A DNA stretch of 43,338 nt from a virus. A program made the translations under genes and the position numbers. The stretch is taken from positions 1-43,338 of IMG/VR virus record IMGVR_UViG_3300044489_000054; one strand, written 5' to 3'. This document shows positions 634 to 42,595 of this stretch, one piece after another (the stretch's first letter is position 1; every line of letters starts with the position of its first letter). The notes under the pieces were generated by a model. That model searched no databases. It was not told the DNA's origin and saw only the letters and a list, made by a program, of their open reading frames with translations.

Positions 634-642
634 GTTATCCTC

Positions 643-1737: not shown

Positions 1738-1747
1738 AGTTTCCTCC

Positions 1748-2434: not shown

Positions 2435-2444
2435 AGCAATCTCC

Positions 2445-2858: not shown

Positions 2859-2887
2859 TTTTAGCCTCCGTTAACTAAAGCGCGGGT

Positions 2888-2943
2888 CCGAAAAAAATTC
2901 GCCCTGTGCCCCCGCGCCGAAGCACAGGGCGATTTTTTTTCCC
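2888..2943. repeat. Dispersed palindromic repeat, copy R1 (both arms); terminator-like
   Basis: Arm 2890-2909 (GAAAAAAATTCGCCCTGTGC) and its inverted partner at 2922-2940 flank a 12-base GC-rich loop. The stem is about 19 bp and ends in A/T runs on both sides, so it would look like a bidirectional intrinsic terminator. It lies between the capsid gene and the decoration-type gene, the usual place for partial termination that favours capsid over downstream genes. It is also a member of the repeat family found at about twelve places in the window. Confidence 0.9.
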
Positions 2944-2962
2944 ACGAAAGGAGTGTGAGAAA

Positions 2963-3994: not shown

Positions 3995-4017
3995 CTTTAG
4001 CCTCCATGACTAGAACT

Positions 4018-4665: not shown

Positions 4666-4676
4666 TGTTACCTCCC

Positions 4677-13600: not shown

Positions 13601-16600
13601 GTGCAAGATCATACTGCTGCTGACCCTTAGAGATACCAGCAGCCCGCGCTTCTTTCATAATGTGTCTGTTGACTAAAACAGCGTCAGGAAGATCATCAAG
13701 TTCTTTCTTTGCAAACCAGGCATAGCCTCCTGACTCGCCAATAATGCGTCCATATTCCATATCCATCTTCGCGTATTGCTTTTGGTACTCAGTCAGAAGC
13801 CTGTCTGAGTATTCTTTAGCAGTGATTAATCCAGCCTGGTGATCAGCAAAGAGTTGTGTCTGTGATACACGAACCCGCTTGATAGCGTTTACGTACTCCT
13901 CTTCCACCTGCTGCACTGCCTGTCGCATCTTAGATTGATCCTTCAATCCAGTAGCCAGAGCAGCATGCGCGTTAGCGCGAGAGAGTTGAAGATCATGCTC
14001 TATCTTACTAAGCGCCTTCACCAGATTCTCAGCAACCGTAACTTTTTCCTTCTTAGGTACTGTAGCATCTTTACGAACAACTTCACGAAGTTGCTTGCTT
14101 GCTTCTCCAACTACAGTTCCAGGAACTGGAGCCGGAGGAGACGTAACCTGCTTTGCAACTTCCAGCGGCCTCGTCATGTATACCTGTTCGAGATCTCGTA
14201 GACGCTTGACGAACTCTTCCCTGTTCTTTGATTTAGACGCAGCAGTCTTAATAAGTTGATGTAGTTCAGCAAGCCCGCTATCAGTAATGTCCTTAGCCAA
14301 TTCCTCAGATAGAATATCCCAAGGCTTGACTCTAATCGCGTCATCACCAAGCAATCGAACATTGCCACCGTGGCTTGATACAAACTCAGCAATCAACTCA
14401 CGTATCTGTGCAATGTTATCGGCACCCAAGAAGCCAGCCTGCTCGATCTTTCCCTTGATGATTCCTATTTCCTTGGGAGTAAGCAGTCTTGCTATTTCGT
14501 CTGGAAGAGTTACGTCTATCTGTGATCTACGCCACAGCGTTCTTGTAGCACCATCAAATGCTTGCTGCACGATAGTTCGTGATGCTTGCTGCTCAAATTT
14601 CTGTGCAGCATACATCGAGAATGTAGTAAGCCCAGGCTTGGTCATAAACGTTTCTCCAGCACCAATACCCTGCGTTGCTGCACGAACGTCATAACCAAGC
14701 ACCAACTTGTTCAAAGCAGCGCGACGACTGCTGATGAATGGAGAGTACCCATCAACCATGATATGCGCAACGTTGTCTGTAAAGTTTCTAATCGCGTAGC
14801 CCAGATTCATGCCCATGTATAGACGAGCGAATACGTTATCAAGAGGACGTCTTTTTTCAACAATGGCTTTAGCCCCACGCAGGATAATCCCTTTCTCGTA
14901 CTCGGCTACTGGTATCATTTCACTAATAGCAAACCTTGCTTTGTTGTACCAAGCATGTGCTACCTCAGTGGCTGTATGGGCTTCATCCGACATCTTAAGT
15001 GCTCTAGTTAGTGCAACAAGTTTTCCATCCTTGTCAGTTGCAATCTTCTTCATAAGTACTGCAGCACGTCGACCGTTTCGTGAAGATGGTGTCATTCCGT
15101 AACCACGATTGAAGAGTTCCCGACCAGCAGCCCTGACCTTTGCAGGATCATCGTCTGCTAGTTTAATCCACAACGAAGTTACTTCACCAATCTCGTCGTC
15201 AAGCCTTCGTGCGAATTCAGTCTCGAATTCCGGAGTACCTACTAGATTTTTCCAGTTAGGATCTGTTTTCATGCTGCCAAGAATAGCACGATTTGCTGTA
15301 CCGTTTACGATCTCTACAGCCTGAGCCGCTTCTTCCGCAACCATGTGTCTCATAGAATCGGTTGTATACGGAGCAACAATAGCAGCGCCCTTACCAAAGA
15401 TATTCTCGGCTTCCTTAACCTGACCAGCACGAGAACTCAGCATTGCTATATCGTTAGCAACCGTTTCTGTAGGAAGAAGATGATCGAACAATGCTTGCTC
15501 ATCTATCTTCTTCCCAACACGTAGCGCCTCACCAGCGTCTGTAAGTTGTGGAAGATTAACCATTCTATTTGCTTTTGCAAGATCCATGACCTTTATGACT
15601 TTGTCGAATGCCACGTCTACTATGTTCAAAGGATCAAACACTGTTTGGCCAATCATTTCTTTCCACCAAACAGAATGCTTCATCAAGACTTCTTGTGCCT
15701 CTTCGTCAGTGAAATCACCCATAGTGTTCAGTTCTCTGTAGGCATTACCAGCAGCCTCAGGTCCAGAAAACTGAATACCACGAGAATACACCCAGGCACG
15801 CTCTTGCTGCGGTGTATTTACTCCATAGAGTTCTCGCTCGTGTCCATAGAACGCATCACCAAGCAAGGTCTCTACAACCTCTGCAGGAGTATTTATAAGT
15901 TCCAATGAAGCCGAAGCCGTTCTACCAAAGTCAGAGGTAGTAATGTTAGTTATGATATTGTCGAAGGAGTTCCACGGAAGATCCGTACCAGTTTGGCCCC
16001 AACTGCTCCAAGCATTTCTTGCTTTACTCCATCGCGCGTTTACGTGTTCATCCACATAGTTAATAAAGGACTCGCCCTTTTTCCAACCCATAGGAGCATC
16101 AGTCTCAGGGTTATAAGGATCAGGCTTTACCTCTGGAGATACCGTTTCCAGATCCTGAGCGGCTGATTGCATATCCTTATCCGCTTGCTTCTTCTGCTCT
16201 TCCGCAACTGGTCCAGTAATTGCTGGAGGAGCCAGACCAAAGAAGTCAGCGATTGAAGATGTGAGATTGGAAAAAAAGTCGCCCTGTGCCACCTCCGCCT
16301 CGCTGGTTTGCACAGGGGGTTTCTTTTCCACGGTGGTGCTTTCGATGCTTGTCTCTGGCGATTCGAGTTCGTAATTAACACCGGAGGAGTAATCTTCACT
16401 AGGTGGCGTAGACTCTCTTCCGGATACTTGATCAAGAACTTCCTTCTCTGTCATTTCCATACTGGAATCGCCACGTTGGCCAGATGGTTTATGGAATGGT
16501 TGGTTAATATCTTCCCATCCCGCAGGACGCTCCCACGGTTGCCACATTTTGAAGCCTAACCTATCCGGATGTGTGGGAGGCAAGGCTTGTGGCGTTGGTT

Positions 16601-16718
16601 TATAATTTCCAGTGTATTCATTTCTTGGTGTAGGTGCAGGTGGCTGTGGTACACCACCTGCACCATAGACCGGCTTCTGTATTCTAGGAGCCGGAGGGGC
16701 GGGTGGATTCTTGCTCAT
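4677..16718 (-). CDS. Giant 4013-residue polyvalent virion-type protein with zincin-like HEAGH motif
   Basis: This single uninterrupted frame fills 12 kb. The start follows GAGGG. Visible parts: proline-rich N-terminus (1-180) holding a complete dispersed repeat (EKKPPV at 131-136, AQGDFF at 144-149); an all-helical region with a hydrophobic segment near 635-655 (MNLGYAIRNFTDNVAHIM); a coiled-coil region (about 880-1000); many degenerate alpha/beta modules (about 1230-2955); a Pro-Thr linker near 2700-2718; a second EKKPPV at 3062-3067; HEAGH at 3119-3123, a zinc metalloprotease signature; and an aromatic hydrophobic helix near 3466 (FPWVYWYTRAVPNW) in the C-terminal part. The layout resembles large polyvalent phage proteins that are packaged and injected. 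I see no single-subunit RNA polymerase motifs. Injection and protease roles are inference. Confidence 0.85.
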   Translation of the reverse strand: MSKNPPAPPAPRIQKPVYGAGGVPQPPAPTPRNEYTGNYKPTPQALPPTHPDRLGFKMWQPWERPAGWEDINQPFHKPSGQRGDSSMEMTEKEVLDQVSGRESTPPSEDYSSGVNYELESPETSIESTTVEKKPPVQTSEAEVAQGDFFSNLTSSIADFFGLAPPAITGPVAEEQKKQADKDMQSAAQDLETVSPEVKPDPYNPETDAPMGWKKGESFINYVDEHVNARWSKARNAWSSWGQTGTDLPWNSFDNIITNITTSDFGRTASASLELINTPAEVVETLLGDAFYGHERELYGVNTPQQERAWVYSRGIQFSGPEAAGNAYRELNTMGDFTDEEAQEVLMKHSVWWKEMIGQTVFDPLNIVDVAFDKVIKVMDLAKANRMVNLPQLTDAGEALRVGKKIDEQALFDHLLPTETVANDIAMLSSRAGQVKEAENIFGKGAAIVAPYTTDSMRHMVAEEAAQAVEIVNGTANRAILGSMKTDPNWKNLVGTPEFETEFARRLDDEIGEVTSLWIKLADDDPAKVRAAGRELFNRGYGMTPSSRNGRRAAVLMKKIATDKDGKLVALTRALKMSDEAHTATEVAHAWYNKARFAISEMIPVAEYEKGIILRGAKAIVEKRRPLDNVFARLYMGMNLGYAIRNFTDNVAHIMVDGYSPFISSRRAALNKLVLGYDVRAATQGIGAGETFMTKPGLTTFSMYAAQKFEQQASRTIVQQAFDGATRTLWRRSQIDVTLPDEIARLLTPKEIGIIKGKIEQAGFLGADNIAQIRELIAEFVSSHGGNVRLLGDDAIRVKPWDILSEELAKDITDSGLAELHQLIKTAASKSKNREEFVKRLRDLEQVYMTRPLEVAKQVTSPPAPVPGTVVGEASKQLREVVRKDATVPKKEKVTVAENLVKALSKIEHDLQLSRANAHAALATGLKDQSKMRQAVQQVEEEYVNAIKRVRVSQTQLFADHQAGLITAKEYSDRLLTEYQKQYAKMDMEYGRIIGESGGYAWFAKKELDDLPDAVLVNRHIMKEARAAGISKGQQQYDLARWPYDMEKYYGEGIDWQTPYLVPLQRQVEADAAKMFKKYFKDLTIEERVQLLNHYRHGLNDLPEIKDAAQLRSLYENHMARGYHEGADFSNFDVTINPFPSSNVMSIDDWRAGKELYQTGPEEIRKIAWGEEYLDEPIIHAVNTGQWIGDLSYIQRLGDTKKEFLPPGKEVNFARLAVDIAKDVAELNRNAKAPGARIACFATDAGYFFVGPYDKHGTYSRNVALQIAQGYVQKNQPIPNMTMIWYSASTTDEYAFIMEKGTIAQMASPGERGVKIEWAHELGNAGELPKGIEAPVNQSFALHAAVDKLPATVLDDPIGFHQLIYLDYNPEYPKTAHDYFIIGSHESDAESLYQMAFQRNYKQLAASESQPVVSVRYSKKKVMISLDFEPIKLNARQQDEARIRVAKKLIKMGADPDSEMLGLGISLGEFAKRTASDNPEMPLIKLRQFIGAFGSRDDEAAKELARRIKRDPDLASEVRAPELDPLSMRTRAAEAGTHKYPPVKTQVIMPGEKSFLHNPVERAEAITDILRAGEAGKAQCYFSFDYYTRSFVESTESLAHAASAGTKNSYLGWQTMHGVFIEAPTDLRMDALQALREMGYSDDVITVWRSKKGAPVSDVVIGRLNTLLGEDPSEMLAKGMTGFKDGWVTLNKGEQAVAVYNPTTRQLVSSTFEGSFDPSSISGATTFMSFQPQQHLVIIRSTDPNAYLVSSNADYLNTPHGFSNFLKDAIPEGTEYVTFQSPVFGSLTFKYDNLLAETASSSPLERFLTKDAGDIARVKGKQITVGDFDVELSKEQTFIASKDPMDMYLYEDSAFVITRGNTAPQDAAKLAVARGLNTDKSIQIFHNGVVTTHNIRDLIKTSAPKDHAISFIAMTHNDVNVTTLSGLQAQGIPTALFVSRGGDIVAIPYKDYKIAEGIAHTSFAEKGDRIVASGSLSMEGKNITYNVDISIADDEVVKNALKNNGVKAKADFRNARTPSQDTSYTLVEVKDLPVEQPVVAVDVTPAQPVLNLANREVDFYLPYDELDLTKAVLLTADMKKSLGLFRQKGNFVIRTNNANPLSNKPIADKLLDYGFNKQTPVLVTNLDTKETTPFILADLAGAGDAPVDIAEATTLPVSTEVQRVAIDVKSRKAATTKPEAGRKAVEVLPKDAEVMEGLKLPDGTIVPDGQVTETTVKALEQLPPDTPVIVQTPTGEVSGKAEQVASDIRYSNVLDLESNPDVKAYMSKPIGEQERYIVTKDTGEVIKVAPGTVIPNKASLVLVKSGDTYIVATHELSSFVGIRKVAAELKMAPDQVILIDDGLFKRGRTTRLTPGFLAGEEVAGSNSLRHRRWSMLGSNTTVKDFGSEAWDLQSSAGTGSMRLRRVPLDNPYPKGKSGVVTVSKRGDKPIMVTGVMDRTETMELFTELAGRKIDRNTPVIWRTYTQSANIPMIERTSTLGDLGNGVFQGSYYRQEELFGDINLPSGGGQGLVPDELNMVQNWLNPDGSAAISDWSGALDAEVPDHLAYITHYTSSIGTVFSRSANIRAAENTIVGHIYWNQDGTKKVILEFAPDQFIDEASRAEGRLEEAAKLLRAGVPEKTPVRMQGDRVTNLEDFVDEKVRMEVQAIKTRPKAPEVPPAPEVAPTVITPPVSDEALEAAAREDLKENVMAQIGPRPKKAAPTPTPTPTPTPTPTPTPTKSKPKSTTPRMDRPKITVTELGDDIQKPEPWVTTLNLDTGILQKSELKEVSEIIASTNGRSAIIRKLEDGTIEVHVPDGRIKQTFARMREAGVDPDASVMLYDMQHTQPTGFETNVGGAATLIVSSNDKDRIWHFIGASHPDDAASVMITADESADAIAHIGGDLDANDLAKQLNTKPKDAILITKTSNGQFHVESKLPSFDVVQAINRWGMTDDVTIATFKSKDLISDYPAHMGEINRMATIDSYAVLKDNKRVPLQKVKNWSEVTHIINKNETESIRVAKYIGGLKREDFAHRAMNVFNLTPEQRDGVMTIFDAIAKSWASTYGEDWRLWYERFISDVRFEKKPPVHLSGLESIAKMAERASFQRVGKEVFGSWSLNPLTGLGVLKGFENANASTLMHEAGHMLVPMLRNDDLIIIEKWVGRRRNLWDVNDQEKFAKAFEMYIFEGFAPTKGLLGVFEKMKRWISDAYRALFNRRGPMEKFPDDVRSVFDNLLTYDIGDVTDTWKKNRAARDKVLMELRDAGGVKASIESPGKLETRAGDILEPDAVKPDEVVPRVYAKPVQAMKEFKIGDIPYAMYPVRKKNGSIDLVPFACVNKPEWEGKVVAANEYREYVRAHAQKVMASGKPEAVVAQNAVSAVQSGLASGPSPSAVSVNTDMAVRATNLLERVIKEVEDMPATTLTRSLEQAGKAGEPLDNVLNTFTKRLQSRHVDVHAAAAKYAKRVRDHALLDYQMRRTPDILLQLAFPWVYWYTRAVPNWAQSLARSPGAVNAYLRMRRGIEQMNKDDPDIPDWAKNHIAISGVPGFDGKLLWDFESTFIPVQNIFESFEDPDRERSAFGKAIQAIGRYGPAVHPLLMFAYAAERALQGDREGARTPGYLSPVTRSFAALTGKVVEPWMWTRDPRTGNVQPFVGGTKWNVASATRRLAASQMLGSLSPDDAIYAAATQRGPTFADAIVSALSAQRLPALASMFLGLRITPRAGWESELAKQGREYQDLKKTMLPKEAATQILGKYPWLSTAWLAYDTEQQRISSLAWNVLNRVPPGKSGAALLDKLGFTSVMREKFYQSAGDLSGWQPADYQALTYAVMDAAELIASPTGEIAQGIKRAKEKRAALYKRSETEWPSAQKWQDKFFETEQTKGHDAAIAYAISTQNPNQPNSGLFGYWDWLNREMISDPDLLQYYADAEDVDRAATTIVHQAAEVRWPGVHAYNDKWWDLNKDKNAQRALMKQQIPNTTTTVGAYLIAYWGWKDKATETAKKALAKHREAAGSSSKVSVNPLTNPTLAQMSALEK
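7515..7535. repeat. Dispersed repeat, copy R2 (single arm) inside the giant gene
   Basis: Plus-strand GTGCACAGGGGGTTTCTTTT is the one-arm form of the family. It is read in frame by the minus-strand giant gene as EKKPPVH at residues 3062-3068, in a linker about 50 residues before the HEAGH motif. The same peptide is produced by copies R3 and R11. Confidence 0.85.
8564..8617. repeat. Tandem TTGGTG hexamer tract encoding a Pro-Thr linker
   Basis: Eight perfect TTGGTG units (8564-8611) and one variant unit TAGGTG encode alternating Pro-Thr on the minus strand in the giant protein, a stiff extended linker before the last alpha/beta modules. Tracts like this change length by slippage in whole hexamers, which keeps the frame. 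Confidence 0.9.
16269..16329. repeat. Dispersed palindromic repeat, copy R3 (both arms) in the giant gene N-terminus
   Basis: Arms at 16269-16289 (GGAAAAAAAGTCGCCCTGTGC) and 16310-16329 are inverted to each other around a 20-base spacer. The element is read in frame on the minus strand: the first arm gives EKKPPVQ and the second gives AQGDFFS (residues 131-150). This is the clearest example of the whole palindrome sitting inside a coding sequence. Confidence 0.9.
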
Positions 16719-25509: not shown

Positions 25510-25535
25510 CACATAGCAGCATAGCACGCCAACGC

Positions 25536-25568
25536 AAGGCCACCAGACTAGCACAGTCTGGTGGCCTT
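25536..25568. terminator. Hairpin A after the first early gene
   Basis: Perfect 14-bp stem (25536-25549 with 25555-25568) around the loop AGCAC, followed by TCGCTTT. It is a strong hairpin but has only a weak T-run, so it may be a pause, processing or mRNA-stability element rather than a strict terminator. Hairpin B repeats its core. Confidence 0.55.
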
Positions 25569-25581
25569 TCGCTTTACTGGT

Positions 25582-25626
25582 AATGGCAAGGCCACCAGAC
25601 TAGCACAGTCTGGTGGCCTTGCCATT
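25582..25626. repeat. Hairpin B, extended copy of hairpin A
   Basis: Perfect 20-bp stem (25582-25601 with 25607-25626) with the same AGCAC loop and the same 14-bp inner stem as hairpin A. No T-run follows. The two hairpins are direct repeats separated by 13 bp. Confidence 0.85.
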
Positions 25627-25639
25627 GGCAATAAGGTAT

Positions 25640-26567: not shown

Positions 26568-26880
26568 CCAACACCACAATGGAAAGCACCGGAAATCGGG
26601 GGGGGGGGTACCCCCTGGGTACTACCGCTACCATATCCCGCCGTGTCCGGGGGTATAGACAAAGAGGAAGGGTCTTTTTAAGAGAGGAAAATAGGTAATT
26701 AAAGGATTAGCTTAATCCCGATTATTACCTTTTACCCCCTATCTCTACCCCCTATAAGGGGGGGATATGGTAGTACTACCATCGGGGGGGGGGGGGGGGT
26801 TTTCCGATGCTTTCCGCATCACAACAGCAAAAAGCAACACTAACCAAAGCAACACTAACGAAAGCAACACTAACCAAACA
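26534..26880. other. Non-coding region of nested inverted repeats, G-runs and iterons; candidate replication origin
   Basis: From left to right: hairpin GTGCTTTCCG/CGGAAAGCAC (26534-26562); GGAAAGCACCGGAAA (26581-26595); a run of 11 G (26598-26608); palindrome GTACCC-CCT-GGGTAC (26608-26622); CTACCATATCCC (26628-26639), paired with GGGATATGGTAG (26762-26773); a run of 16 G; TTTTCCGATGCTTTCC (26800-26815), inverted to the first block; and three 15-bp iterons (26831-26875). Apart from the end of the preceding gene there is no coding frame. This fits an origin or a complex regulatory site. The long G-runs could also be uncertain in length. Confidence 0.55.
26831..26875. repeat. Three 15-bp iterons
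   Basis: Tandem AAAGCAACACTAACC units at 26831-26845, 26846-26860 (last base G) and 26861-26875, followed by a partial AAACA. The only mismatch is the last base of the middle copy. Iteron-like arrays bind initiator proteins in many replicons. Confidence 0.9.
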
Positions 26881-26903
26881 CCGAAAGGAAAAGGAATAAC
26901 AAA

Positions 26904-27164
26904 ATGGAATCGCCAGATGTCTACCTCATTCTCATCCTAATGTTGAACAATCTGCACTGGCTCGGCATCCAGATACAGAATCTTGGTAGCACCGTCGAAG
27001 ATTTTGTGTGGTGCATCAAGATGGACAAGGAACACGAGACTTGTCACGTGACTGTTGTTCCTCACAAGGATAGCAGTTACGCATTCAACATCGAGTTCCG
27101 TCTTGACTTGGATTTCGATGGTGAGCGTTGGTATATCCGGAACCTTTCCATTCACTATCGCTAA
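26904..27164 (+). CDS. Small unknown protein with hydrophobic N-terminus
   Basis: 86 residues, start behind GAAAGGAAAAGG. Residues 6-22 are hydrophobic (VYLILILMLNNLHWLGI), either a membrane anchor or a buried helix. The rest is a short beta-rich domain with acidic strands (FNIEFRLDLDFDGERWYI). It is the first gene after the iteron region and is followed by composite element 1. No family is recognised. Confidence 0.65.
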   Translation: MESPDVYLILILMLNNLHWLGIQIQNLGSTVEDFVWCIKMDKEHETCHVTVVPHKDSSYAFNIEFRLDLDFDGERWYIRNLSIHYR

Positions 27165-27351
27165 CAACAGCAACACCTGCACGCTATCCCAAACAGCAGC
27201 AGCAAGCAACACGCTTCACGCTCTACCGCTGGGTGGGATGGCGTCCAGATTCTAGAAAGAATCAGTACTTACCAATTCTTTCTAGAATCTGGAGGCCATC
27301 CGATCAGGCCTGAAAAAAATCCCCCTGTGCGAATCAGGGGCGGGCAGGAAA
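27165..27351 (+). repeat. Composite structured element, copy 1
   Basis: The 187 bases between genes hold three parts. P1 is ATCCCAAACAGC (27186-27197) against GCTGGGTGGGAT (27228-27239) with two mismatches. P2 is a perfect 18-bp stem (27245-27262 with 27275-27292) around loop CAGTACTTACCA, with an outer GATGGC/GCCATC pair. Then comes one arm of the dispersed repeat (27310-27330) and a G-rich tail leading to the next ribosome site. Copy 2 at 28814 has the same order and spacing. It could be a mobile element or a structured leader RNA. Confidence 0.8.
27310..27330. repeat. Dispersed repeat, copy R7 (single arm, non-coding)
   Basis: CTGAAAAAAATCCCCCTGTG plus C, then CGGGG-type sequence, lies at the end of composite element 1 and 21 bp before the next start codon. 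Confidence 0.85.
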
Positions 27352-27768
27352 ATGGCAACCGAAAAGCGTACGTTCAAAACACTAAGACTACAAGATGGAG
27401 TCGCCGTAGCAAAAAGATTTAGAGACGGCGAGTCTATCTTTATCCAGTTAGTGGATAAGTCTTGGTTGCTGGTTACGCACGCTTTCAAGAGTGGACAATT
27501 CAGCGACGCTCGAATGTTCGTTGACTATATGAAAGCGAATGGGATTGCAATTACTGATGTGAAAGCGATTGCCTGCTGCTATCCTGTTTCTGTTCGGAAC
27601 AATCCCAAGTACAGGAAAGAGTACACATCCAGAGTGATCGGCACTCTGAATGGTGTAACCAACATTATCTTTGAGCGTGACTGTGTGAAGTGCGTGTCCA
27701 CAGATTACGACAAAGAAGATTGGAACATCTACAAGGACAGAAGAGTGAAAGGAAAAAGGGAAAGGTAA
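27352..27768 (+). CDS. Unknown 138-residue basic protein
   Basis: The start is preceded by GGGCAGGAAA. The protein is basic with a mixed alpha/beta pattern (ESIFIQLVDKSWLLVTHAF, then FSDARMFVDYMKANG), a CxxC pair (CVKC) near residue 111 and a Lys/Arg-rich tail (RRVKGKRER) that could bind RNA or DNA. The stop overlaps the next start by one base (TAATG), so the pair is translationally coupled. No family is recognised. Its leader is composite element 1. Confidence 0.7.
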   Translation: MATEKRTFKTLRLQDGVAVAKRFRDGESIFIQLVDKSWLLVTHAFKSGQFSDARMFVDYMKANGIAITDVKAIACCYPVSVRNNPKYRKEYTSRVIGTLNGVTNIIFERDCVKCVSTDYDKEDWNIYKDRRVKGKRER

Positions 27769-28013
27769 TGTTTACCAGCGAAATCGTCAGTGTCAAGCAG
27801 TTTACCTATCGCACTGCTATGGTGGTCGGCGGTATGGAAATTCCACGCACTGTGATGGCGAGCGTTGAAAGTATGCTCGCTCATAAGGCGGGAGTTTCCA
27901 AGGATAACCACACCGTTTATCAGGTACAGTACGGGTGTGGCTCCACCCAGTTTTTCGGGTTCAGTGATCTTTCCTGTTACGTCGGCAACGGCATCCGCAT
28001 CGAGCGGTACTAA
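27768..28013 (+). CDS. Unknown 81-residue protein
   Basis: I chose the start at 27768 (MFTSEIV) since GGGAAAGG stands just before it and it overlaps the previous stop by one base. It has a compact beta-rich pattern with short strands (FTYRTAMVVGGMEIPR, TVYQVQYGCGSTQFFGF) and ends in IRIERY. There is no signal peptide and no known motif. It is likely a small globular phage protein of unknown role. Confidence 0.65.
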   Translation: MFTSEIVSVKQFTYRTAMVVGGMEIPRTVMASVESMLAHKAGVSKDNHTVYQVQYGCGSTQFFGFSDLSCYVGNGIRIERY

Positions 28014-28049
28014 CCAGCAAGAAAGGAAGAAAGGAAGAAAGGAACGAAC

Positions 28050-28394
28050 ATGGGTACCAACTACTATCTCCTGCGTTTCACTAAAGCGCAGGAAAGCCCA
28101 GAGTATCTTCATCTGGGAAAGCAATCAGCAGGATGGAAGTTTCTCCTGCACCCGTTACCAGAAACATGCGTAACCTGGCGGGGAATGAAAGCGTGCATCC
28201 GTCAGGAAACTGCGGATGGTGCCGTAATCAAAGATGAATACGGAAACACCGTGACATACGCAGAATTCGTTGAGCTTGTTGAAACAAGTACACATCATCC
28301 CGAAGCCCTCTCGCATTCTCTGCGTTACTGGAGAGAAGATGATTCCTTCCAGGATTCGGAGGGTTTTGATTTCTCTCCGGGCAGGTGGTCGTAA
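28050..28394 (+). CDS. GTNYYL-type conserved phage protein
   Basis: 114 residues, start behind GAAAGGAAC. The N-terminus MGTNYYLLRF followed by LHLGKQSAGWKFLLHP (about residues 20-35) is a pattern I recognise from a family of short phage proteins. Those usually also carry a CxxC knuckle between the two motifs, which is missing here. The biochemical role is unknown. The second half holds DEYGNTVTYAEFVELVE, also typical of the group. Confidence in the family pattern is moderate, and I make no claim about function. Confidence 0.7.
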   Translation: MGTNYYLLRFTKAQESPEYLHLGKQSAGWKFLLHPLPETCVTWRGMKACIRQETADGAVIKDEYGNTVTYAEFVELVETSTHHPEALSHSLRYWREDDSFQDSEGFDFSPGRWS

Positions 28395-28395
28395 C

Positions 28396-28647
28396 ATGAA
28401 CGTTCACTTGCTTCTTGCGTGGGCAATTGAATACTTCATACGTTACGTTGCAAAGACGCAGCGTGACATTGACTTAGCAACGTCTTTCCGTGAGCAGGAA
28501 TTCCTGTTCGAGCAGTTCACGGAAGATCGCAAGATCACAAATCGTTTCATCTTTGATGCTCACATACTATGGACCACAATCGTAGAGCCCGATGATTGCT
28601 GGGCAACACCTGCTATCATGGCAGGAATTACTGAAAGGAGCAAGTAA
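28396..28647 (+). CDS. Unknown 83-residue helical protein
   Basis: The start at 28396 (MNVHLLLAWAIEYFIRYV) is one base after the preceding stop, so it is likely coupled. The protein is mostly helical, with an N-terminal hydrophobic segment (residues 3-18) and acidic/basic helices (RDIDLATSFREQEFLFEQF). A short amphipathic helix or membrane-peripheral anchor is possible. No family is recognised. Confidence 0.6.
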   Translation: MNVHLLLAWAIEYFIRYVAKTQRDIDLATSFREQEFLFEQFTEDRKITNRFIFDAHILWTTIVEPDDCWATPAIMAGITERSK

Positions 28648-28648
28648 C

Positions 28649-28813
28649 ATGAAGTGCGTTCACTGCAACGTCAAACTTAATTCAGTCAACGAATGCCCGA
28701 AGTGCGGGATGAAGTATCCCACACGTTTCGTTGACTACATCACGCTGGTTACAAACCATCCAGGTTCGCTGAGTGAGCGGTGGAATTGGACACCACCGCC
28801 TCCGCGCCGTTAG
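28649..28813 (+). CDS. Mini zinc-ribbon protein
   Basis: 54 residues, start behind GAAAGGAGCAAGTAAC. Two CxxC knuckles (CVHC at 3-6 and CPKC at 15-18) fit a zinc ribbon. The tail is rich in Pro and Trp (RWNWTPPPPRR). It is one of several small zinc-binding proteins in this block. It probably acts through protein or nucleic-acid contact, but the target is unknown. It is followed by composite element 2. Confidence 0.7.
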   Translation: MKCVHCNVKLNSVNECPKCGMKYPTRFVDYITLVTNHPGSLSERWNWTPPPPRR

Positions 28814-28998
28814 TAACAACATCCCACACAGCACGCTGTATTAGCCTGCGTCAACCGCTGTGTGGGATGGCGTTTGGTTTCCAGCAAGAATTGGTAATTA
28901 CTGATTCTTTCTGGAAGCCAGACGCCATCTCACAAGAGTGAAGATGGAAAAAAACTTCTGGGCGCCCTGTGCATAACGGGGGCAGAAAGGTACCAACA
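28814..28998 (+). repeat. Composite structured element, copy 2
   Basis: 185 bases between genes. P1 is a perfect 12-bp stem, ATCCCACACAGC (28821-28832) with GCTGTGTGGGAT (28857-28868). P2 has outer GATGGCGT/ACGCCATC (28866-28873 with 28922-28929) and an inner stem (28876-28891 with 28904-28919) around loop TGGTAATTACTG. The dispersed repeat arm follows at 28948-28972, with a G-rich tail and then the ribosome site. The P2 loop is the reverse complement of the copy 1 loop with one mismatch. Confidence 0.8.
28948..28972. repeat. Dispersed repeat, copy R8 (single arm, with a few extra bases)
   Basis: AAAAAAACTTCTGGGCGCCC then TGTGC keeps the A-run and the CCCTGTGC core with several extra bases between them. 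It is followed by a CGGGGG segment, as in R7 and R9. Confidence 0.7.
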
Positions 28999-29475
28999 AT
29001 GTTTGGCAAGAAATGCAGCAGCGAGAAGGAAGCGTGGTCGGCAGCATTGGATGCACAGCAGGATTATCTCAACATGCTGTGCGAATTTGAACCGGACTTC
29101 CTAGTTCCTGATATTGTGGCTTCCTTCTGGTGGGAAGCAAATGATGGCACGGTGCTGACGTACCGTGTTGTTGTAACCGCGCATGATGTGGCTGAGCCGG
29201 AAGCAGCGCAGATTCCCACGCACCACGGGTATGCAATACTCGTGGAGATGTGGGAAATCAGCGAGGATGAGAACACTGAGGATTGTCACCTCGTCACGAT
29301 GTTGGGAATCTATGGTGATTTCCAGCAGCCCGACGAAGTGTATTCCTCCAGCCAGACGTTGGAGAAACTTCGGCGCCGGAACATTCGCGTCGCACTCCCA
29401 CTCTTCCTCAAGGGCGAAATGAAGTTCGATGAATTCTTCGGCGTGGCTCGCAGTTACTTGCGGGTCGGTCGCTAA
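28999..29475 (+). CDS. Unknown 158-residue protein
   Basis: I chose the start at 28999 (MFGKKCSSEKEAW), with GAAAGG 8 bp upstream. The protein is acidic and alpha/beta, with strands (TVLTYRVVVTAHDVAE, YAILVEMWEISEDE) and helices near the end (FDEFFGVARSYLRVG). There is no recognised domain. A long antisense frame covers it and its neighbours but lacks a ribosome site. Confidence 0.7.
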   Translation: MFGKKCSSEKEAWSAALDAQQDYLNMLCEFEPDFLVPDIVASFWWEANDGTVLTYRVVVTAHDVAEPEAAQIPTHHGYAILVEMWEISEDENTEDCHLVTMLGIYGDFQQPDEVYSSSQTLEKLRRRNIRVALPLFLKGEMKFDEFFGVARSYLRVGR

Positions 29476-37214: not shown

Positions 37215-38015
37215 ATGATGCTGGAGTACGAGACTAGCATTGGGTGGGAAGAAACTGGATCTACTATCTTCATAGCACACAAACAAGATATAAGGTTTGC
37301 TATCACTACTCCAGCAGAAACTTTCCATCGTTGGTATGAAGGCACAGAGTCGTGCCACATACCTATTCCCAAACACAGAAAGGGCACTGGTGTAACTACA
37401 TGGTTAGAGTCTGCTGGATATTACTATCAGTGGACGCCTAAGAATCTACCAGAGGAGTTCCAGTTCATGCTGAAAGCGTTTCCTAGATTACGTCCAGCCT
37501 GGCTAGATACAGACTTCATATCAGTAAAGCCTTTGTATCTAGGAAACACTATTCATGTGAGACACGAGGACATTAGCATAGCGTGTGCAAAGACAACATG
37601 CACTGCTGTTTTTCCTGCGTCTCTTGGTCAAGGAGCATACAAAGAATGGGACGGAGACACACTGGTTGGATGGACAGCAACAGAAAACATCCGTAAGGCT
37701 GTAGCATTAGACCAAGGTTACGTACCAAAGAGGTGCAAGATACCTGGCTGTGTTGATTTCGCATGGGCAAAGTCAGGATACTGTGACATGCACGATCTTA
37801 ATGTACGTAATCATCCTAGGAAAGACGTGGCTGTATTCATATACAAACCACAGTTCCAACCTAGCGAGTTGTGGGATACAGTATTTACGGATGTACCAGT
37901 AGCCACCGTACACGGGAGTCTGGTTCCTGTGTATGCTCCTGGTCTTTCAGAGTTAATGTACGTGCGACTTGGGGATCTGTATCCACCAGTTACGCACAGA
38001 CAAGAAAGGGGGTAA
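37215..38015 (+). CDS. Unknown 266-residue protein with a small Cys/His finger
   Basis: ATG at 37215 or 37218 behind TAAGGTAGGT. It is rich in Trp, Tyr and Pro, with strands such as NTIHVRHEDISIACAKT. A compact finger near residues 173-192 reads CKIPGC...GYCDMHD, a C-x4-C...C-x2-H pattern seen in small nuclease-associated or DNA-contact fingers. No catalytic HNH residues follow, so no nuclease is claimed. Confidence 0.65.
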   Translation: MMLEYETSIGWEETGSTIFIAHKQDIRFAITTPAETFHRWYEGTESCHIPIPKHRKGTGVTTWLESAGYYYQWTPKNLPEEFQFMLKAFPRLRPAWLDTDFISVKPLYLGNTIHVRHEDISIACAKTTCTAVFPASLGQGAYKEWDGDTLVGWTATENIRKAVALDQGYVPKRCKIPGCVDFAWAKSGYCDMHDLNVRNHPRKDVAVFIYKPQFQPSELWDTVFTDVPVATVHGSLVPVYAPGLSELMYVRLGDLYPPVTHRQERG

Positions 38016-38021
38016 GTAGTA

Positions 38022-38564
38022 TTGGCCGAGTTTAAGCAACTGAATGTGAAGTTGAACGCTGCTATCTATGAAGCATTCATAGCCGCATGCACACGCAACA
38101 AGGTGAGCATGTCTGGCCAAGTGAAGCAGATGATAATGGATTACATCGCTGGTTCTTGGCCTGAAGAGTTCATGCTTGAGGAATGTAAAGCATGTGGCAA
38201 ACAACTAATGCATATGAACAAGACGATGGCGTACTGTAGCCATGAATGTGCTGGCATTACAAGGCTACCGAGATCAATCTTAGTAGGTCACACAGCAGTG
38301 ATCTCAAACACTGGAGTATACGGACATGTCTCTGTTGGTCGGGATGCCGTATCTTGTATCATATGCAACAAGCGGGTGGACCCTGGCCATTTTTTCGGCG
38401 AGGGTGCACAGGGGGTTTTTTGTCTGAAACACGCAGTGTTGTTGCATCATCGCTACCAGCAGCAGCAACAACCGCACTCGAATCCACAGATGGACGACGC
38501 TCAAAAGCTTCTCGACATGATCAAACAAGGAATAGACTTAACTAAAATGGAAGGAGAAATATAA
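38022..38564 (+). CDS. Ribbon-helix-helix and zinc-finger protein carrying a dispersed repeat
   Basis: 180 residues from a TTG start behind AAAGGGGGTAAG. Residues about 5-42 read as a ribbon-helix-helix DNA-binding domain (KQLNVKLNAAIYEAFIAAC, then VSMSGQVKQMIMDYI). A first knuckle follows: CKAC 55-58 with CSHEC 72-76. A second is C112IIC115 with C134LKH137, where copy R10 of the dispersed repeat encodes GAQGVFC and so supplies or borders C134. A Gln-rich tail follows. It overlaps the next gene by 1 bp. Likely a phage transcription regulator; this is inference. Confidence 0.7.
   Translation: MAEFKQLNVKLNAAIYEAFIAACTRNKVSMSGQVKQMIMDYIAGSWPEEFMLEECKACGKQLMHMNKTMAYCSHECAGITRLPRSILVGHTAVISNTGVYGHVSVGRDAVSCIICNKRVDPGHFFGEGAQGVFCLKHAVLLHHRYQQQQQPHSNPQMDDAQKLLDMIKQGIDLTKMEGEI
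38404..38427. repeat. Dispersed repeat, copy R10 (single arm) in a zinc knuckle
   Basis: GTGCACAGGGGGTTTTTTGT ends in TGT rather than the usual TCC. It is read on the plus strand as GAQGVFC. The TGT is Cys134, the third ligand of a predicted C-x2-C...C-x2-H finger. Confidence 0.8.
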
Positions 38565-38812
38565 TGGAAATAGTTCCTGGGTACACATGGAATGGCGAGA
38601 GGCTTGTGAGGAATCTGGAAGCCAGTATCCAGAGAGTGTCGTTCAATGGGCAGAGTGTAACGATACACACTAGCAGTGATGCTAGAACGTGCCAGATGTG
38701 TGGCAATCAAATTAAGAAAGGTGATAAGTATGGTGCAGGACGCAAGGTTGCATACTGTATCCACTGTCTTACACCTTCATTAAAGAACATGGAGGAAGAA
38801 GAAAGTGTGTAG
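38564..38812 (+). CDS. Small zinc-finger protein (82 residues)
   Basis: The start follows AAAGGAGAAATATA and overlaps the preceding stop by 1 bp. One finger is visible: CQMC (about 43-46) with CIHC (about 65-68) and KKGDKYGAGRKVAYC between them, which aligns in shape with the second knuckle of the preceding protein. The N-terminus is beta-rich. The stop overlaps the start of the next mini-gene. Confidence 0.65.
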   Translation: MEIVPGYTWNGERLVRNLEASIQRVSFNGQSVTIHTSSDARTCQMCGNQIKKGDKYGAGRKVAYCIHCLTPSLKNMEEEESV

Positions 38813-38903
38813 AAACTGTGGAAGTAAAAGCATGAAATGGAATCCTCGTTTGGCAAGATGGGAATGTGTTTCTTGCGGTCACGCACAGCGTTCCCAAAGT
38901 TAG
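38805..38903 (+). CDS. Mini zinc-ribbon protein (32 residues)
   Basis: GTG start behind GGAGGAAGAAGAAA, overlapping the preceding gene by 8 bp. Two knuckles, CRNC (2-5) and CVSC (21-24), with a basic spacer. It is a complete minimal zinc ribbon. It is too short for normal gene finding, but the ribosome site, overlap and paired Cys support it. Confidence 0.55.
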   Translation: MCRNCGSKSMKWNPRLARWECVSCGHAQRSQS

Positions 38904-38978
38904 CCGGTGGGGGCCGGATGGGCAGCCAGACCGATGGCAGACCGGCGGGTGACTTTTGAAAATTGGTCCCCAAAGGTA

Positions 38979-39007
38979 TTGACAAAGGTGCCTATCTGTG
39001 CTATAAT
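38979..39007 (+). promoter_or_regulatory. Perfect-consensus promoter of the recombination module
   Basis: TTGACA (38979-38984) and TATAAT (39002-39007) are 17 bp apart. It starts a second rightward transcription unit after the small-gene block. It is a match as good as the leftward promoter, so these genes may be transcribed strongly by the host polymerase from early on. Confidence 0.9.
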
Positions 39008-39013
39008 GTAGGT

Positions 39014-39135
39014 GTGCCTGGGGGATACCCGCGCCCGACCCATCCCCCTGCCATTGGACGCCCCGTGGGGGTGTCTATCAGAATCTGTAGCAATAAAATG
39101 TTGCTACTGTTTTTTCTCGCGAAAGGAGAAATGAA
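39014..39135 (+). promoter_or_regulatory. Structured 5' leader with terminator-like attenuator
   Basis: The leader holds three hairpins in a row: GGGGGAT/ATCCCCC (39020-39026 with 39042-39048), GACGCCCC/GGGGGTGTC (39057-39064 with 39067-39075), and GTAGCAA/TTGCTAC (39087-39093 with 39101-39107). The last is followed by TGTTTTTTC, an intrinsic terminator pattern, just before the ribosome site. This fits attenuation or a ligand- or protein-controlled leader. No known riboswitch class is recognised. Confidence 0.55.
39087..39116 (+). terminator. Intrinsic terminator-like hairpin in the leader
   Basis: A 7-bp perfect stem (GTAGCAA/TTGCTAC) with loop TAAAATG is followed by TGTTTTTT. It lies within 20 bp of the start of the gene at 39136, so it would act as an attenuator rather than a gene-end terminator. 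Confidence 0.55.
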
Positions 39136-39504
39136 ATGCAAGTCGCTAATGCAGGTAATGTGGATCGCAATAAGAAGTTGAGCCCCGTAGCCGCTGGAAT
39201 GTTGATGGGCAAGTCCGGTTCACACATCAGTAAATTGCAGGCTGATGAGATTCTTCCTCGCAATCTTACTGTTGGTGCTGTTCTGGATTATATTGCGACT
39301 GCTGATACTGGTCGCCGCCGAAGCAGCAAGAATGATGGTGAGCGCATGTGGTACTTGACATGCGACGAGGCTACTGCTCAGCAGATCATCAATACGTTCC
39401 GTGTACGTATTGATGATCCGCGCGAACTTGCGAAGCAGCGTGCAGAAGAGGCGAAGGAGAAGGCTCGCAAGGATCTGGAGGAACTCGGCCTCGTTCCTGC
39501 GTAA
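39136..39504 (+). CDS. Small basic protein, possible DNA-binding regulator
   Basis: 122 residues. I chose ATG 39136 (MQVANAGN), 7 bp after AGGAG; an alternative ATG 5 bp upstream is in another frame and too close to it. Residues about 16-55 (SPVAAGMLMGKSGSHISKLQ) have a helix-turn-helix-like spacing. The middle is basic (RRRSSKND), and the C-terminal 45 residues are a charged helix (ELAKQRAEEAKEKARKDLEE). It is the first gene of the recombination unit and may control it or assist replication. No firm family. Confidence 0.65.
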   Translation: MQVANAGNVDRNKKLSPVAAGMLMGKSGSHISKLQADEILPRNLTVGAVLDYIATADTGRRRSSKNDGERMWYLTCDEATAQQIINTFRVRIDDPRELAKQRAEEAKEKARKDLEELGLVPA

Positions 39505-39519
39505 AACATAAGCAGTAGA

Positions 39520-39547
39520 GAAACTACTACAATGGCGTAGTAGTTTC
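39520..39547. repeat. 11-bp hairpin between genes, no T-run
   Basis: GAAACTACTAC (39520-39530) with GTAGTAGTTTC (39537-39547), loop AATGGC. A CA-rich stretch without a T-run follows, so it is not an intrinsic terminator; it may protect or process the mRNA. Confidence 0.7.
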
Positions 39548-39619
39548 CCGCATACACACCACACACACGCCCCACGCCCCACGTGGCGATTTCATTCTAC
39601 AGAAAGGAGTATTCCAAAT

Positions 39620-40564
39620 ATGCCAGATGTTTCTACTACGTCCGAAAAGAAACCCCCTGTGCACTCCGGCGGGCCAGACCTGTGTATGTTGCGTCAGTGG
39701 TTTGGATCGTTTACTAAAGAGGAATTAGTAAACATGCTTGCCACTATAATGTATACTGGAATACCTCCGGTGATTCCAGACGCAGCCTTGATAAAAGAAG
39801 TAAAGGTTTCTCGTGGACGTGGTCGCCCAAAGGGTAGCACAGTAGTTGGACTGACTAGTAATCTGCTGAAAGTGCTAGGTAAATACTACCCCATGCCAGC
39901 AGAAGAACTCAATCTTTCCATAATTGCAAAGGAAATGAATGTAGCAGTAAGCACACTTGTACGCTACCGAGAACACGTGGAGTATCTACCACCATACTTG
40001 CAATCATACTTCTTGGACATTCCTAACGTGCACATAGCGCCACGCTTTCCTCTCATCTGGAGAGCGGTGCTGGACATACACAATCACATGTTGATTGCAG
40101 CAGAACCTGGACGCATCATTCCTATCTATGCACTACATGCTAGATTGTGGGGAGCAAAGGCATTGAGCATTTCAGTTCGTACTTTGGGGGATCACAAACT
40201 AGCGAGAGCAGAACAGCAGGAATTGAATCGTGTGTTTGATCCTAATCTACTTAGCGTATTCGAACACGCAGGTTGGCCAAAGATACAAGTTCCTTCTGTA
40301 CCTGGTGGTGCTGGTTGTGCAGATGGATGTCACATAGTTGAAGCATATATTCACGGGCATGTACCAAAGACAGTGGGTGGATGGCGAGAACTACTGTGTA
40401 TGTCCAGTAAACTTCCGAAAGGTGTGGTCTTGGACACGCAAGATAAGAAGGACTTTATTGCTCCAAGAACACTAAAGGATGTATACCAGCAGATCCTGTC
40501 ACCAGTCTGGAATGAAGGAGAGGACATAATTGGCTCGCCAAGTCAACCATTACCTACAGGTTAA
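39620..40564 (+). CDS. AT-hook/HTH DNA-binding-type protein
   Basis: 314 residues, start behind GAAAGGAGTATTCCAAAT. Copy R11 of the dispersed repeat encodes EKKPPVH at residues 9-15. An AT-hook-like SRGRGRPKGS at 64-73 is followed by an HTH-like segment at about 97-120 (NLSIIAKEMNVAVSTLVRY). The rest is globular alpha/beta with many His and Tyr residues. No helicase or primase motif is seen. A replication initiator or regulator role is possible from the position before RuvC- and SNF2-type genes. The next gene overlaps its end by 35 bp. Confidence 0.7.
   Translation: MPDVSTTSEKKPPVHSGGPDLCMLRQWFGSFTKEELVNMLATIMYTGIPPVIPDAALIKEVKVSRGRGRPKGSTVVGLTSNLLKVLGKYYPMPAEELNLSIIAKEMNVAVSTLVRYREHVEYLPPYLQSYFLDIPNVHIAPRFPLIWRAVLDIHNHMLIAAEPGRIIPIYALHARLWGAKALSISVRTLGDHKLARAEQQELNRVFDPNLLSVFEHAGWPKIQVPSVPGGAGCADGCHIVEAYIHGHVPKTVGGWRELLCMSSKLPKGVVLDTQDKKDFIAPRTLKDVYQQILSPVWNEGEDIIGSPSQPLPTG
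39643..39664. repeat. Dispersed repeat, copy R11 (single arm)
   Basis: GAAAAGAAACCCCCTGTGCA is read on the plus strand in frame as EKKPPVH. It is near-identical to the arm of R3 and R2 and is followed by a CGGCGGG segment. Confidence 0.85.
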
Positions 40565-41057
40565 GATAAAATTTCCCGGAAACTTTTTGGATAAGTTTCC
40601 TATCCTGGGAATAGATCCGGGAAAAACAATTGGCATGTGCTATGCCACTGCAGAGATAGATGAGGAGACACACGCGGGCATCGTGTATCTATCTCTGTTT
40701 GATATTTCTTGGCCATCTGACGTGGATGTTCTGCAAGGAATGTTCAAACGTCAGGACAAACGACCAAGCACTGTGGTGATCGAGTGCTTTCGTTTGTTTC
40801 CTCACAAAGCAACAGCCTTAATCGGTGACGATTTCATTCCGTCACAGGTCATAGGCTTCTTGCGTATTCAGTGTATGGATTACAGCACGTTGTTTGTGGA
40901 ACAGATGTCTTCCATTAAGGCTGCATGGAAGGCACCAGCACTTGCGGCTTTTGGAATTGATCTCAAAGGCGTACCACATCATTCAAGAGACGCATTAATC
41001 CACGTAGTTCACTACTTAGTAGAGGAGGCAAAGCGTGCGCGAAAAGAAAAAACTTAA
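40530..41057 (+). CDS. RuvC-like Holliday junction resolvase
   Basis: 175 residues from a TTG start behind AAGGAG (40515-40520). RNase H-fold catalytic pattern: ILGIDPGKTIGM with Asp29, VVIECFRLF with Glu85, and VPHHSRDALIHVVHYL with Asp154 (and His150/151). These three acids and the order match RuvC-type nucleases. Length is normal for phage RuvC-like resolvases. It likely resolves replication and recombination branches ahead of packaging. It overlaps the gene before it by 35 bp and the helicase gene by 23 bp. Confidence 0.8.
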   Translation: MARQVNHYLQVKIKFPGNFLDKFPILGIDPGKTIGMCYATAEIDEETHAGIVYLSLFDISWPSDVDVLQGMFKRQDKRPSTVVIECFRLFPHKATALIGDDFIPSQVIGFLRIQCMDYSTLFVEQMSSIKAAWKAPALAAFGIDLKGVPHHSRDALIHVVHYLVEEAKRARKEKT

Positions 41058-42444
41058 AGAAATGCGAGCAGTTCGTGATAAGGGACATGCAAAGTCGCCT
41101 TGGCCCTACCAGATGAATGGTGCACGTTTTCTGCAAACGAGAGGCGGTGCTCTGCTAGGAGATCAAGTAGGTCTAGGTAAGACTCTCCAAGCAATCATTG
41201 CTGTGCAGAAATGTGGACTTCCCAATGTGCTCTTGGTAGTTCCGAATAGCCACAAGAAGTGGTGGATTCAGGAGATCATAGCGCAAGAGCGCATTGCGTT
41301 TGATGTCCAGGATGTGAAGATTGAGTTACTAGGCAATCTTCCAGTCGTGCAGATTATCTTTTCTGGTGGGAAGAAACGTGTGTGGATAGTTGCCCATCAT
41401 GAAGCGCTACGCATAAACAGTCCATACTTCAAAGTACTGGACGATGTTCAGTGGGGAACAGTTATTGTAGATGAAGTCCACAAGATTTCCAACCACGAAA
41501 CGCAAAGGGCAAAAGGACTTAACGCATTAAAGAGTTGGCATAGGTGGGGACTGACAGGTTCACCGATTGCCGACAAGCCTGACAGTTTGTGGGGACTGCT
41601 ACATTGGATTGCACCTGACAAGTTCACCAACAAGTGGGCATTCATCAAGGAACACTTCTATGTGTACGAAACTTGGGGAGGAAATCTCAAACTAGGTGCA
41701 TGTATAAATCCAGCAAAGTTGCAGTTAGTAACTGCCCCATATCTACTGGTCAGGAAACTGGAAGACGTGGGCATAGAACTTCCGGAGATTACACCAGTAG
41801 AAGATCGACCTGTGCCTTTGGAGTTGATGCCACTCCAACAGAAATATTATGACAAGGTAGAGAATGAAGCACGCATTGACTTGATGACGCAACTAGGGAT
41901 CGTGGATGTGGATCCCGAAGATTACGAACTCTATCTTGATCTGGATGACGATGGTGCGAAGTGGATTACTAATGCACTATCTCGATTCACTGCATGTCAT
42001 CGTGCAGCATCATTGCCACCTACCGACGACAACGCAAAGATGGAGTGGCTAAGAGAATACGTAGAGAATGGCGGTGAGCCTGCCGTAATCTTTACAAGAT
42101 ACGTAGCCACCAAGGATGCAATCATTGAGAAACTTATGGACTGGCTGCCTAAAGAAGAAGCATCAAAGTACATCGTGGGTACTTATGCCTACATGTCTCA
42201 TGGCCATAACCTTCAGCATTTACATGTGCTTATTCAATGGGACTTGTCGTGGTCTAGAATTGAATATGAACAGAGCATAGGTCGTGTCCATAGACAAGGA
42301 CAACTCCACCCTGTTCAAGCGTATGAACTACAATGTGAGAATACTGTGGATATGTACATCGCTGAGTTAGTACACAACAAACAAGCAACCGCTGAAATGT
42401 TGTTGAAGTGGTTGAGAAAGGAGGAAGAATATGTGGACCAGTAA
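41035..42444 (+). CDS. SNF2-family helicase/ATPase
   Basis: 469 residues from a GTG start behind GAGGAGG. Motifs in order: Q-like/PYQMNGARFLQ (24-34), Walker A GDQVGLGKT (42-50), DEVH box (146-149), LTGSP motif III (173-177), FTRY-type motif IV, and SIGRVHRQGQ motif VI (414-423). This is the SF2/SNF2 pattern of phage DNA translocases and fork-remodelling enzymes. It follows RuvC and precedes a nuclease, so it is likely part of a replication/recombination module. The motif order is complete, with no sign of inactivation. Confidence 0.9.
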   Translation: MREKKKLKEMRAVRDKGHAKSPWPYQMNGARFLQTRGGALLGDQVGLGKTLQAIIAVQKCGLPNVLLVVPNSHKKWWIQEIIAQERIAFDVQDVKIELLGNLPVVQIIFSGGKKRVWIVAHHEALRINSPYFKVLDDVQWGTVIVDEVHKISNHETQRAKGLNALKSWHRWGLTGSPIADKPDSLWGLLHWIAPDKFTNKWAFIKEHFYVYETWGGNLKLGACINPAKLQLVTAPYLLVRKLEDVGIELPEITPVEDRPVPLELMPLQQKYYDKVENEARIDLMTQLGIVDVDPEDYELYLDLDDDGAKWITNALSRFTACHRAASLPPTDDNAKMEWLREYVENGGEPAVIFTRYVATKDAIIEKLMDWLPKEEASKYIVGTYAYMSHGHNLQHLHVLIQWDLSWSRIEYEQSIGRVHRQGQLHPVQAYELQCENTVDMYIAELVHNKQATAEMLLKWLRKEEEYVDQ

Positions 42445-42595
42445 GCCTAAGCAAAAGTACACACGTCCTTCTGTCTCTTACGAAACGCGCAAGTGCAGTT
42501 TGTGTAAGGAGCCTATTGCTTCCGGAGTTCCACATTATGTGGTTGAAGGAGAAGACGAAGAAACCAGATACTATCACAAGGAGTGCCTGCTATGA
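42431..42595 (+). CDS. Small treble-clef-like zinc finger protein (54 residues)
   Basis: The start follows AAAGGAGGAAGAAT and overlaps the helicase gene by 14 bp. Residues: CSLC (22-25), His49 and Cys52 in YYHKECL, a C-x2-C...H-x2-C finger. The N-terminus is basic. It is wedged between helicase and nuclease genes, with an ATGA overlap to the latter, which points to a role in the same complex. Confidence 0.65.
   Translation: MWTSKPKQKYTRPSVSYETRKCSLCKEPIASGVPHYVVEGEDEETRYYHKECLL

Follow-up and report, generated by a model that had tools for sequence, protein, structure and literature searches.

Genomic context of the two cassettes

The stretch of DNA analysed here (the window) is a virus record of 43,338 bases from a tailed phage known only from metagenome data; its genes include those for a large terminase, a helicase and a capsid-like protein. 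Leftward genes span positions 643-24563, and rightward genes start around 25000 and continue onward. Two contigs from metagenome 3300044490, L006 and L007/G002, overlap the window at 99.7-100% identity, and the three belong to a single phage population, giving about 60 kb together. Positions 37846-43337 differ from G002 1-5492 by 16 mismatches, and the other overlap (1-15490) is identical; the mismatches, which fall in the rightward, replication region, are strain variation. Other products encoded on these 60 kb or so are a PD-(D/E)XK nuclease, a protein with a SpoIID domain and a family-A DNA polymerase that carries a uracil-glycosylase domain. Among the matches listed for the terminase, the best in the phage collection are about 26-32% identical, and the best for the capsid are about 32% identical.

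Two perfect sigma-70 promoters (TTGACA, 17 nt, TATAAT, with TG preceding the second hexamer) were predicted in the window, one at 24698-24670 on the - strand, positioned to drive the leftward structural genes, and the other at 38979-39007 on the + strand, within the rightward cluster. Near the start of the rightward genes, the region 25534-25634 holds two identical 35-nt palindromes in tandem (AAGGCCACCAGACT/AGTCTGGTGGCCTT), the first of which is followed by a T-rich stretch and is terminator-like. A little further on, a gap of 336 bp (26568-26903) lying directly 5' of the gene at 26904 contains two G runs, 11 and 16 nt long, along with the 15-nt tandem repeat AAAGCAACACTAACC.

Within the rightward cluster, two intergenic gaps spaced 1.6 kb apart carry the structured cassettes described here, designated copies A and B:

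27165-27351, + strand: copy A, entire intergenic cassette of 187 bp, from the stop codon at 27162-27164 to the ATG at 27352
27352-27768, + strand: gene 3' of copy A, 138 aa, without a family match in Pfam
28814-28998, + strand: copy B, entire intergenic cassette of 185 bp, from the stop codon at 28811-28813 to the ATG at 28999
28999-29475, + strand: gene 3' of copy B, 158 aa, without a family match in Pfam

Both copies are flanked by genes of the same strand, share their orientation and end just 5' of a ribosome site; the genes downstream of A and B are unrelated to each other. A previous sequence-only reading of this DNA had delimited the same two gaps and proposed that they share one order of parts, and both points were confirmed: in each gap P1 is followed by P2, an A-run, the repeat CCCTGTGC, a G-rich stretch and a Shine-Dalgarno-like sequence.

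Anatomy of the cassettes

The elements recognized inside the cassettes are as follows:

27186-27239, + strand: P1 hairpin of copy A, arms 27186-27197 and 27228-27239, with a possible outward extension to 27181/27244
28821-28868, + strand: P1 hairpin of copy B, arms 28821-28832 and 28857-28868, 12 perfect pairs
27236-27301, + strand: P2 long hairpin of copy A, arms 27236-27267 and 27270-27301, sharing 27236-27239 with P1
28865-28930, + strand: P2 long hairpin of copy B, arms 28865-28896 and 28899-28930, sharing 28865-28868 with P1
27293-27311, + strand: P3 small hairpin of copy A in the MFE structure, AGGCC/GGCCT, overlapping the P2 3' arm
28925-28947, + strand: P3 small hairpin of copy B in the MFE structure, CCATCTCAC/GTGA-A-GATGG, overlapping the P2 3' arm
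27312-27340, + strand: dispersed repeat GAAAAAAATCCCCCTGTGC and hairpin CCCCTG/CAGGGG of copy A
28948-28972, + strand: A-run of copy B and, separated from it by extra bases, the CGCCCTGTGC arm of its dispersed repeat

The P1-P2 unit is 110-116 nt long. The P1 stem of copy A contains two A.G mismatches in its middle, and P2, 66 bp in length, is almost perfectly palindromic and has 26-32 predicted pairs in both copies, the 32-nt arms of copy A being 91% complementary and separated by 2 nt. The stretches that lead from CCCTGTGC to the two ATGs differ (GAATCAGGGGCGGGCAGGAAA vs ATAACGGGGGCAGAAAGGTACCAACA), and the segment 27312-27340 looks like an intrinsic terminator when read on the - strand. No sigma-70-like promoter at 9/12 or better was predicted inside either gap by a scan for this promoter type, and an Rfam scan of the window gave 0 matches above the gathering threshold of any family.

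Fold strength and strand preference

A fold scan of the phage (about 60 kb, both strands, 1,484 windows of 160 nt) ranked the window of copy B first and that of copy A second among the most structured (z about -12 and about -9, respectively). When folded as whole gaps, the + strand RNAs had z values of -9.4 for A and -8.7 for B, matched by none of 200 shuffles, and the - strand RNAs gave z = -7.4 (A) and -4.5 (B). Copy B reaches -88.7 kcal/mol as + RNA vs -70.9 as - RNA, because, apart from one C.U, its P2 departs from Watson-Crick pairing only by G.U pairs on the + strand, of which there are five, and never by A.C. For copy A the - strand is slightly favoured (-92.5 vs -88.0 on +) because the centre of its P2 is flipped, and therefore the strand argument depends on copy B. 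The balance modestly favours an RNA of the + strand, the same strand as the genes.

Divergence between copies A and B

The two copies can be aligned as a direct repeat of 79 nt in their P2 part, with 77% identity; P1 is nearly identical between them, and the block ACCGCTG(G/T)GTGGGATGGCGT is nearly unchanged. This degree of identity, together with that of P1, makes the duplication recognisable, and it is nearly certain that A and B are homologous copies of one duplicated structure. The sequence-only reading had described stems of differing sequence with a preserved structure, and P2 arms that share little. The latter statement is wrong, as the sequences are clearly related; the former stands to the extent that the differences within P2 coincide on paired positions. 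In the 26-pair core of P2, 6 pairs are changed on both sides, 4 of which keep a standard pair, and one additional pair is C-G in one copy and U.G in the other. There are 8 changes in the left arm and 7 in the right, and they coincide on one pair 6 times when about 2 coincidences are expected (hypergeometric p = 0.0008). Paired positions have changed together, and a real, homologous and extremely stable structure occupies both gaps.

The remaining two of the six double-changed pairs correspond to a central CA..CA vs TG..TG difference that is part of an inversion of the P2 centre: the central 18 nt of copy A (AATCAGTACTTACCAATT) are the reverse complement of those of copy B (AATTGGTAATTACTGATT) with one difference. 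A single inversion at the hairpin centre accounts for the central changes more simply than four separate mutations would. Neither this inversion nor the overlap of the helices described below figures in the sequence-only reading. The most constant part of P2 is the central AAGAAT..ATTCTT block. Plastid DNA offers well-documented examples of hairpins flipped in this way (PMC6824564), and template switching able to flip the centre of P2 may also make its arms match. Double changes on pairs can accordingly arise in a quasi-palindrome without selection, and the inverted centre suggests that such an event took place here; the compensatory changes between A and B therefore suggest, and do not prove, selection on pairing. 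The covariation score of the two-copy alignment was reached by 184 of 500 shuffles, a control that has no power for two sequences, and covariation is not proven because just two copies exist, which are paralogous. The pair also shows how readily a quasi-palindrome can mimic covariation, a pitfall for the calling of structured RNAs when few copies are at hand.

Search for relatives

Pattern searches of viral contigs with P1, the P2 core and the P1-P2 junction yielded no independent homologue, and protein searches of these contigs with two of the region's small genes, the helicase and the terminase found nothing independent either. The P2 core had no match in genome contigs, and blastn returned no match among phages and one trivial match of 33 nt among plasmids. 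The contigs that carry the dispersed repeat, L006 and L007/G002, belong to the window's own phage population. Seven viral sequences matched the P1-P2 junction pattern; none of them takes on the fold of the element, and a covariance search allowing E up to 10 recovered none, so they were discarded as chance matches.

A candidate RNA processing element between phage genes

The explanation that we tentatively prefer, at somewhat less than even probability, is that the gaps hold an intercistronic cassette of structured RNA, part of the rightward transcript and duplicated a single time in this phage, in which P2 serves as a processing or stability element of the RNase III type. That the cassette acts as RNA rather than as DNA is, by itself, likely. 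According to this proposal, the cassette was duplicated once inside the rightward cluster of small uncharacterized genes, and transcription would run across both gaps and influence the downstream genes. As the polycistronic + strand transcript emerges, P1 would fold first, P2 next with its approximately 26-32 pairs, and then the small hairpins up to the ribosome site. The P2 duplex is long enough to serve as a substrate of the host RNase III, and P2, either once cut or when left uncut and blocking exonucleases, would make the downstream gene independent of the upstream genes in mRNA stability and in translation, as the RNase III hairpins among the early genes of T7 do.

P2, which lies between same-strand genes and has 26-32 predicted pairs in both copies, offers the intercistronic duplex of about 20 bp or more that an RNase III processing site between phage genes calls for. 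The lack of predicted sigma-70-like promoters inside the cassettes is as expected if the element sits inside a transcript. RNase III has several cut sites in lambda, T7 and T3, and its cleavage can expose a ribosome site that was occluded, lambda cIII being an example (PMC5371410); by analogy with such sites, RNase III may be the reader of P2. The closest parallels are the early RNase III hairpins of T7, R1.1 among them, which are likewise long imperfect hairpins among small early genes of one strand and stand before the next gene. R1.1, located between genes 1.0 and 1.1, is however only 60 nt long and has an asymmetric internal loop (PMC6121014), whereas P2 is longer, nearly perfect, joined to P1 and a putative substrate. 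Overall, this exceptionally stable cassette is probably an RNA processing or stability element between phage genes.

The sequence-only reading had left a choice between a leader RNA controlling two genes and a mobile element that uses the dispersed repeat as an end. The first fits the intergenic location, the orientation of the genes, the extreme fold, the compensatory changes and the G.U pairs of copy B; the second found no support, as detailed below.

Overlapping helices and a possible switch

GGAT(GG) belongs both to P1, in its 3' arm, and to P2, at its 5' base, and the 3' base of P2 is in turn shared with P3, so the three helices overlap and cannot all form in full. These overlaps, present in both copies despite the differing P3 sequences, are compatible with a regulatory switch or attenuator in which occupation of the P1 5' arm, for instance by a ribosome that may be finishing the upstream gene, would extend P2 at the expense of P1 and P3 and alter how accessible the downstream ribosome site is. 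In silico, P2 did extend in both copies once the P1 5' arm was blocked, and in copy B the upstream stop codon ends only 7 nt before P1. The predicted access to the ribosome site was nevertheless mostly low in both fold states, without a clean change between them, and adjacent hairpins may overlap by chance. In addition, the + strand has no U-run after P2 or P3, so the cassette is not an intrinsic-terminator attenuator. Because of the low access in both states, we rank the switch among the alternatives to our principal claim and regard it as unlikely.

A bolder version, which we rate quite unlikely, would place the cassettes in a class of phage leader RNAs of their own. P1, the extended P2 and P3 would then be the overlapping helices of a duplicated switch that couples translation of the upstream gene, or the host RNase III, to expression of the next gene, and the P2 centre would be able to flip by inversion.

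A possible DNA-level site

As a nearly perfect 66-bp palindrome, P2 could also act as DNA, bound by a protein for replication, recombination or repression or serving as a hairpin telomere, with the RNA fold as a by-product. The constancy of the AAGAAT..ATTCTT block at its centre points in this direction, and an inverted centre would be tolerable for a symmetric site. Nevertheless, a binding protein needs the letters of its half-sites to be kept and not complementary changes in the outer arms, a DNA site leaves P1 without a role, and no Pfam match to a protelomerase, integrase or recombinase was found in the scanned proteins. In addition, comparable 17-bp repeats of Cluster K phages were judged to be protein sites because their pairing is not kept (PMC3203893), the opposite of what is observed here. 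On balance, a DNA-level role likewise appears unlikely.

Those repeats belong to the Extended Start-Associated Sequences (ESAS) of Cluster K mycobacteriophages, which have counterparts in Cluster EF Microbacterium phages. ESAS are similar to the cassettes in being repeated, in occupying unusually long gaps and in preceding the starts of non-structural genes, and those of Cluster K are also inverted repeats. They differ in that the Cluster K elements have 17-bp arms, many copies and no conservation of RNA pairing (PMC3203893), whereas only two copies, longer arms and conserved pairing are found here. Furthermore, the ESAS of both clusters are tied to a start motif, of 13 bp in Cluster K (PMC3203893; PMC7302621), and no shared 13-bp start motif lies beside the inverted repeats of A and B.

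A possible neutral remnant

The cassettes could instead be functionless, an intergenic palindrome duplicated along with its gap, the similarity of whose arms has been maintained by template-switch correction during replication. Plastid hairpin centres flip by such events (PMC6824564), and between A and B the centre of P2 has been inverted. This account has to contend with the retention of two long gaps in a tightly packed gene cluster and of both P1 and P2 as the most extreme folds in the phage, and we consider it decidedly unlikely.

A possible antiterminator of the put type

In phage HK022, two put sites of similar sequence, with two stem-loops apiece, lie in the early transcripts (PMC9378689). 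As an antiterminator of this type, the cassette would bind RNA polymerase through its two adjacent stem-loops in the nascent RNA and carry it past the terminators of the long operon. Although the gross anatomy of two sites with two stem-loops each is the same here, a put-type function is very unlikely: put RNAs total about 70 nt, have stems with non-canonical pairs and unpaired bases and occur one per early operon, downstream of the early promoters of two different operons, whereas the P1-P2 units measure 110-116 nt, have longer and nearly perfect stems and share one gene cluster, 1.6 kb apart. HK022 put thus differs in size, stem perfection and location (PMC9378689), and neither an Rfam match nor any other sequence-family match links the cassettes to it.

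The cassettes are also reminiscent of the PeSLs (promoter early stem-loops) of T4-type phages, which are intergenic stem-loop cassettes repeated among small genes in plastic regions. A PeSL consists of an early promoter plus a stem-loop (PMC4503421), whereas in A and B no promoter of 9/12 or better was predicted by the scan for the sigma-70-like type, and only two copies exist.

The dispersed repeat

The repeat CCCTGTGC occurs 15 times in the window when about 1.25 occurrences are expected (approximately 12 times chance), on both strands and both within and between genes:

CCCTGTGC copies in the window: 2902, 2922, 7517, 16282, 16310, 18579, 21966, 23977, 26151, 27323, 28965, 31750, 31770, 38406 and 39655

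Further copies are present in L028/L029. The dispersed motif has the form of an A-rich stretch followed by (C/G)CCCTGTGC, and inside genes it often translates as EK(K/N)(P/R)PV, in linker-like segments. Three of its copies, in both orientations, lie in a single open reading frame of 4,013 aa (4677-16718, - strand) amid the structural genes. The inverted pairs 2902/2929, 31750/31777 and, in G002, 13785/13819 resemble bidirectional terminators. The overall pattern resembles that of DNA uptake sequences. In sequenced genomes the dispersed repeat gave 14 single matches scattered among unrelated phyla, and none of the genome contigs found has its exact 19-mer more than once. Judged by this distribution, CCCTGTGC is a phage-wide motif that is present in both cassettes and not a cassette-specific end.

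The proposal of a mobile DNA element, MITE-like or REP-like, ended by this repeat drew on the two separate copies and on CCCTGTGC lying 3' of P2 in the same orientation in both. It is hardly probable: a covariance search of the phage found no third P1-P2 copy, the 15 occurrences of CCCTGTGC in the window are mostly without P1-P2, no scanned non-structural protein matched the transposase, integrase or protelomerase families of Pfam, no target duplication was seen, the cassette is absent from the genome, plasmid and phage collections searched, and the combination of multiple dispersed copies, defined ends and a transposase that marks MITE or REP elements was not found. The frequency of CCCTGTGC outside P1-P2 and the lack of matches to these enzyme families leave the mobile-element reading unsupported.

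Implications

If the cassette works as proposed, as an RNA processing or stability element, it would be a compact RNA control element, present in duplicate, of a phage without a close relative in the searched collections. Copies A and B, with the same fold, partly different sequence and an inverted centre, would then constitute a clean natural pair with which to test whether an intercistronic hairpin of a phage needs sequence, duplex or symmetry.
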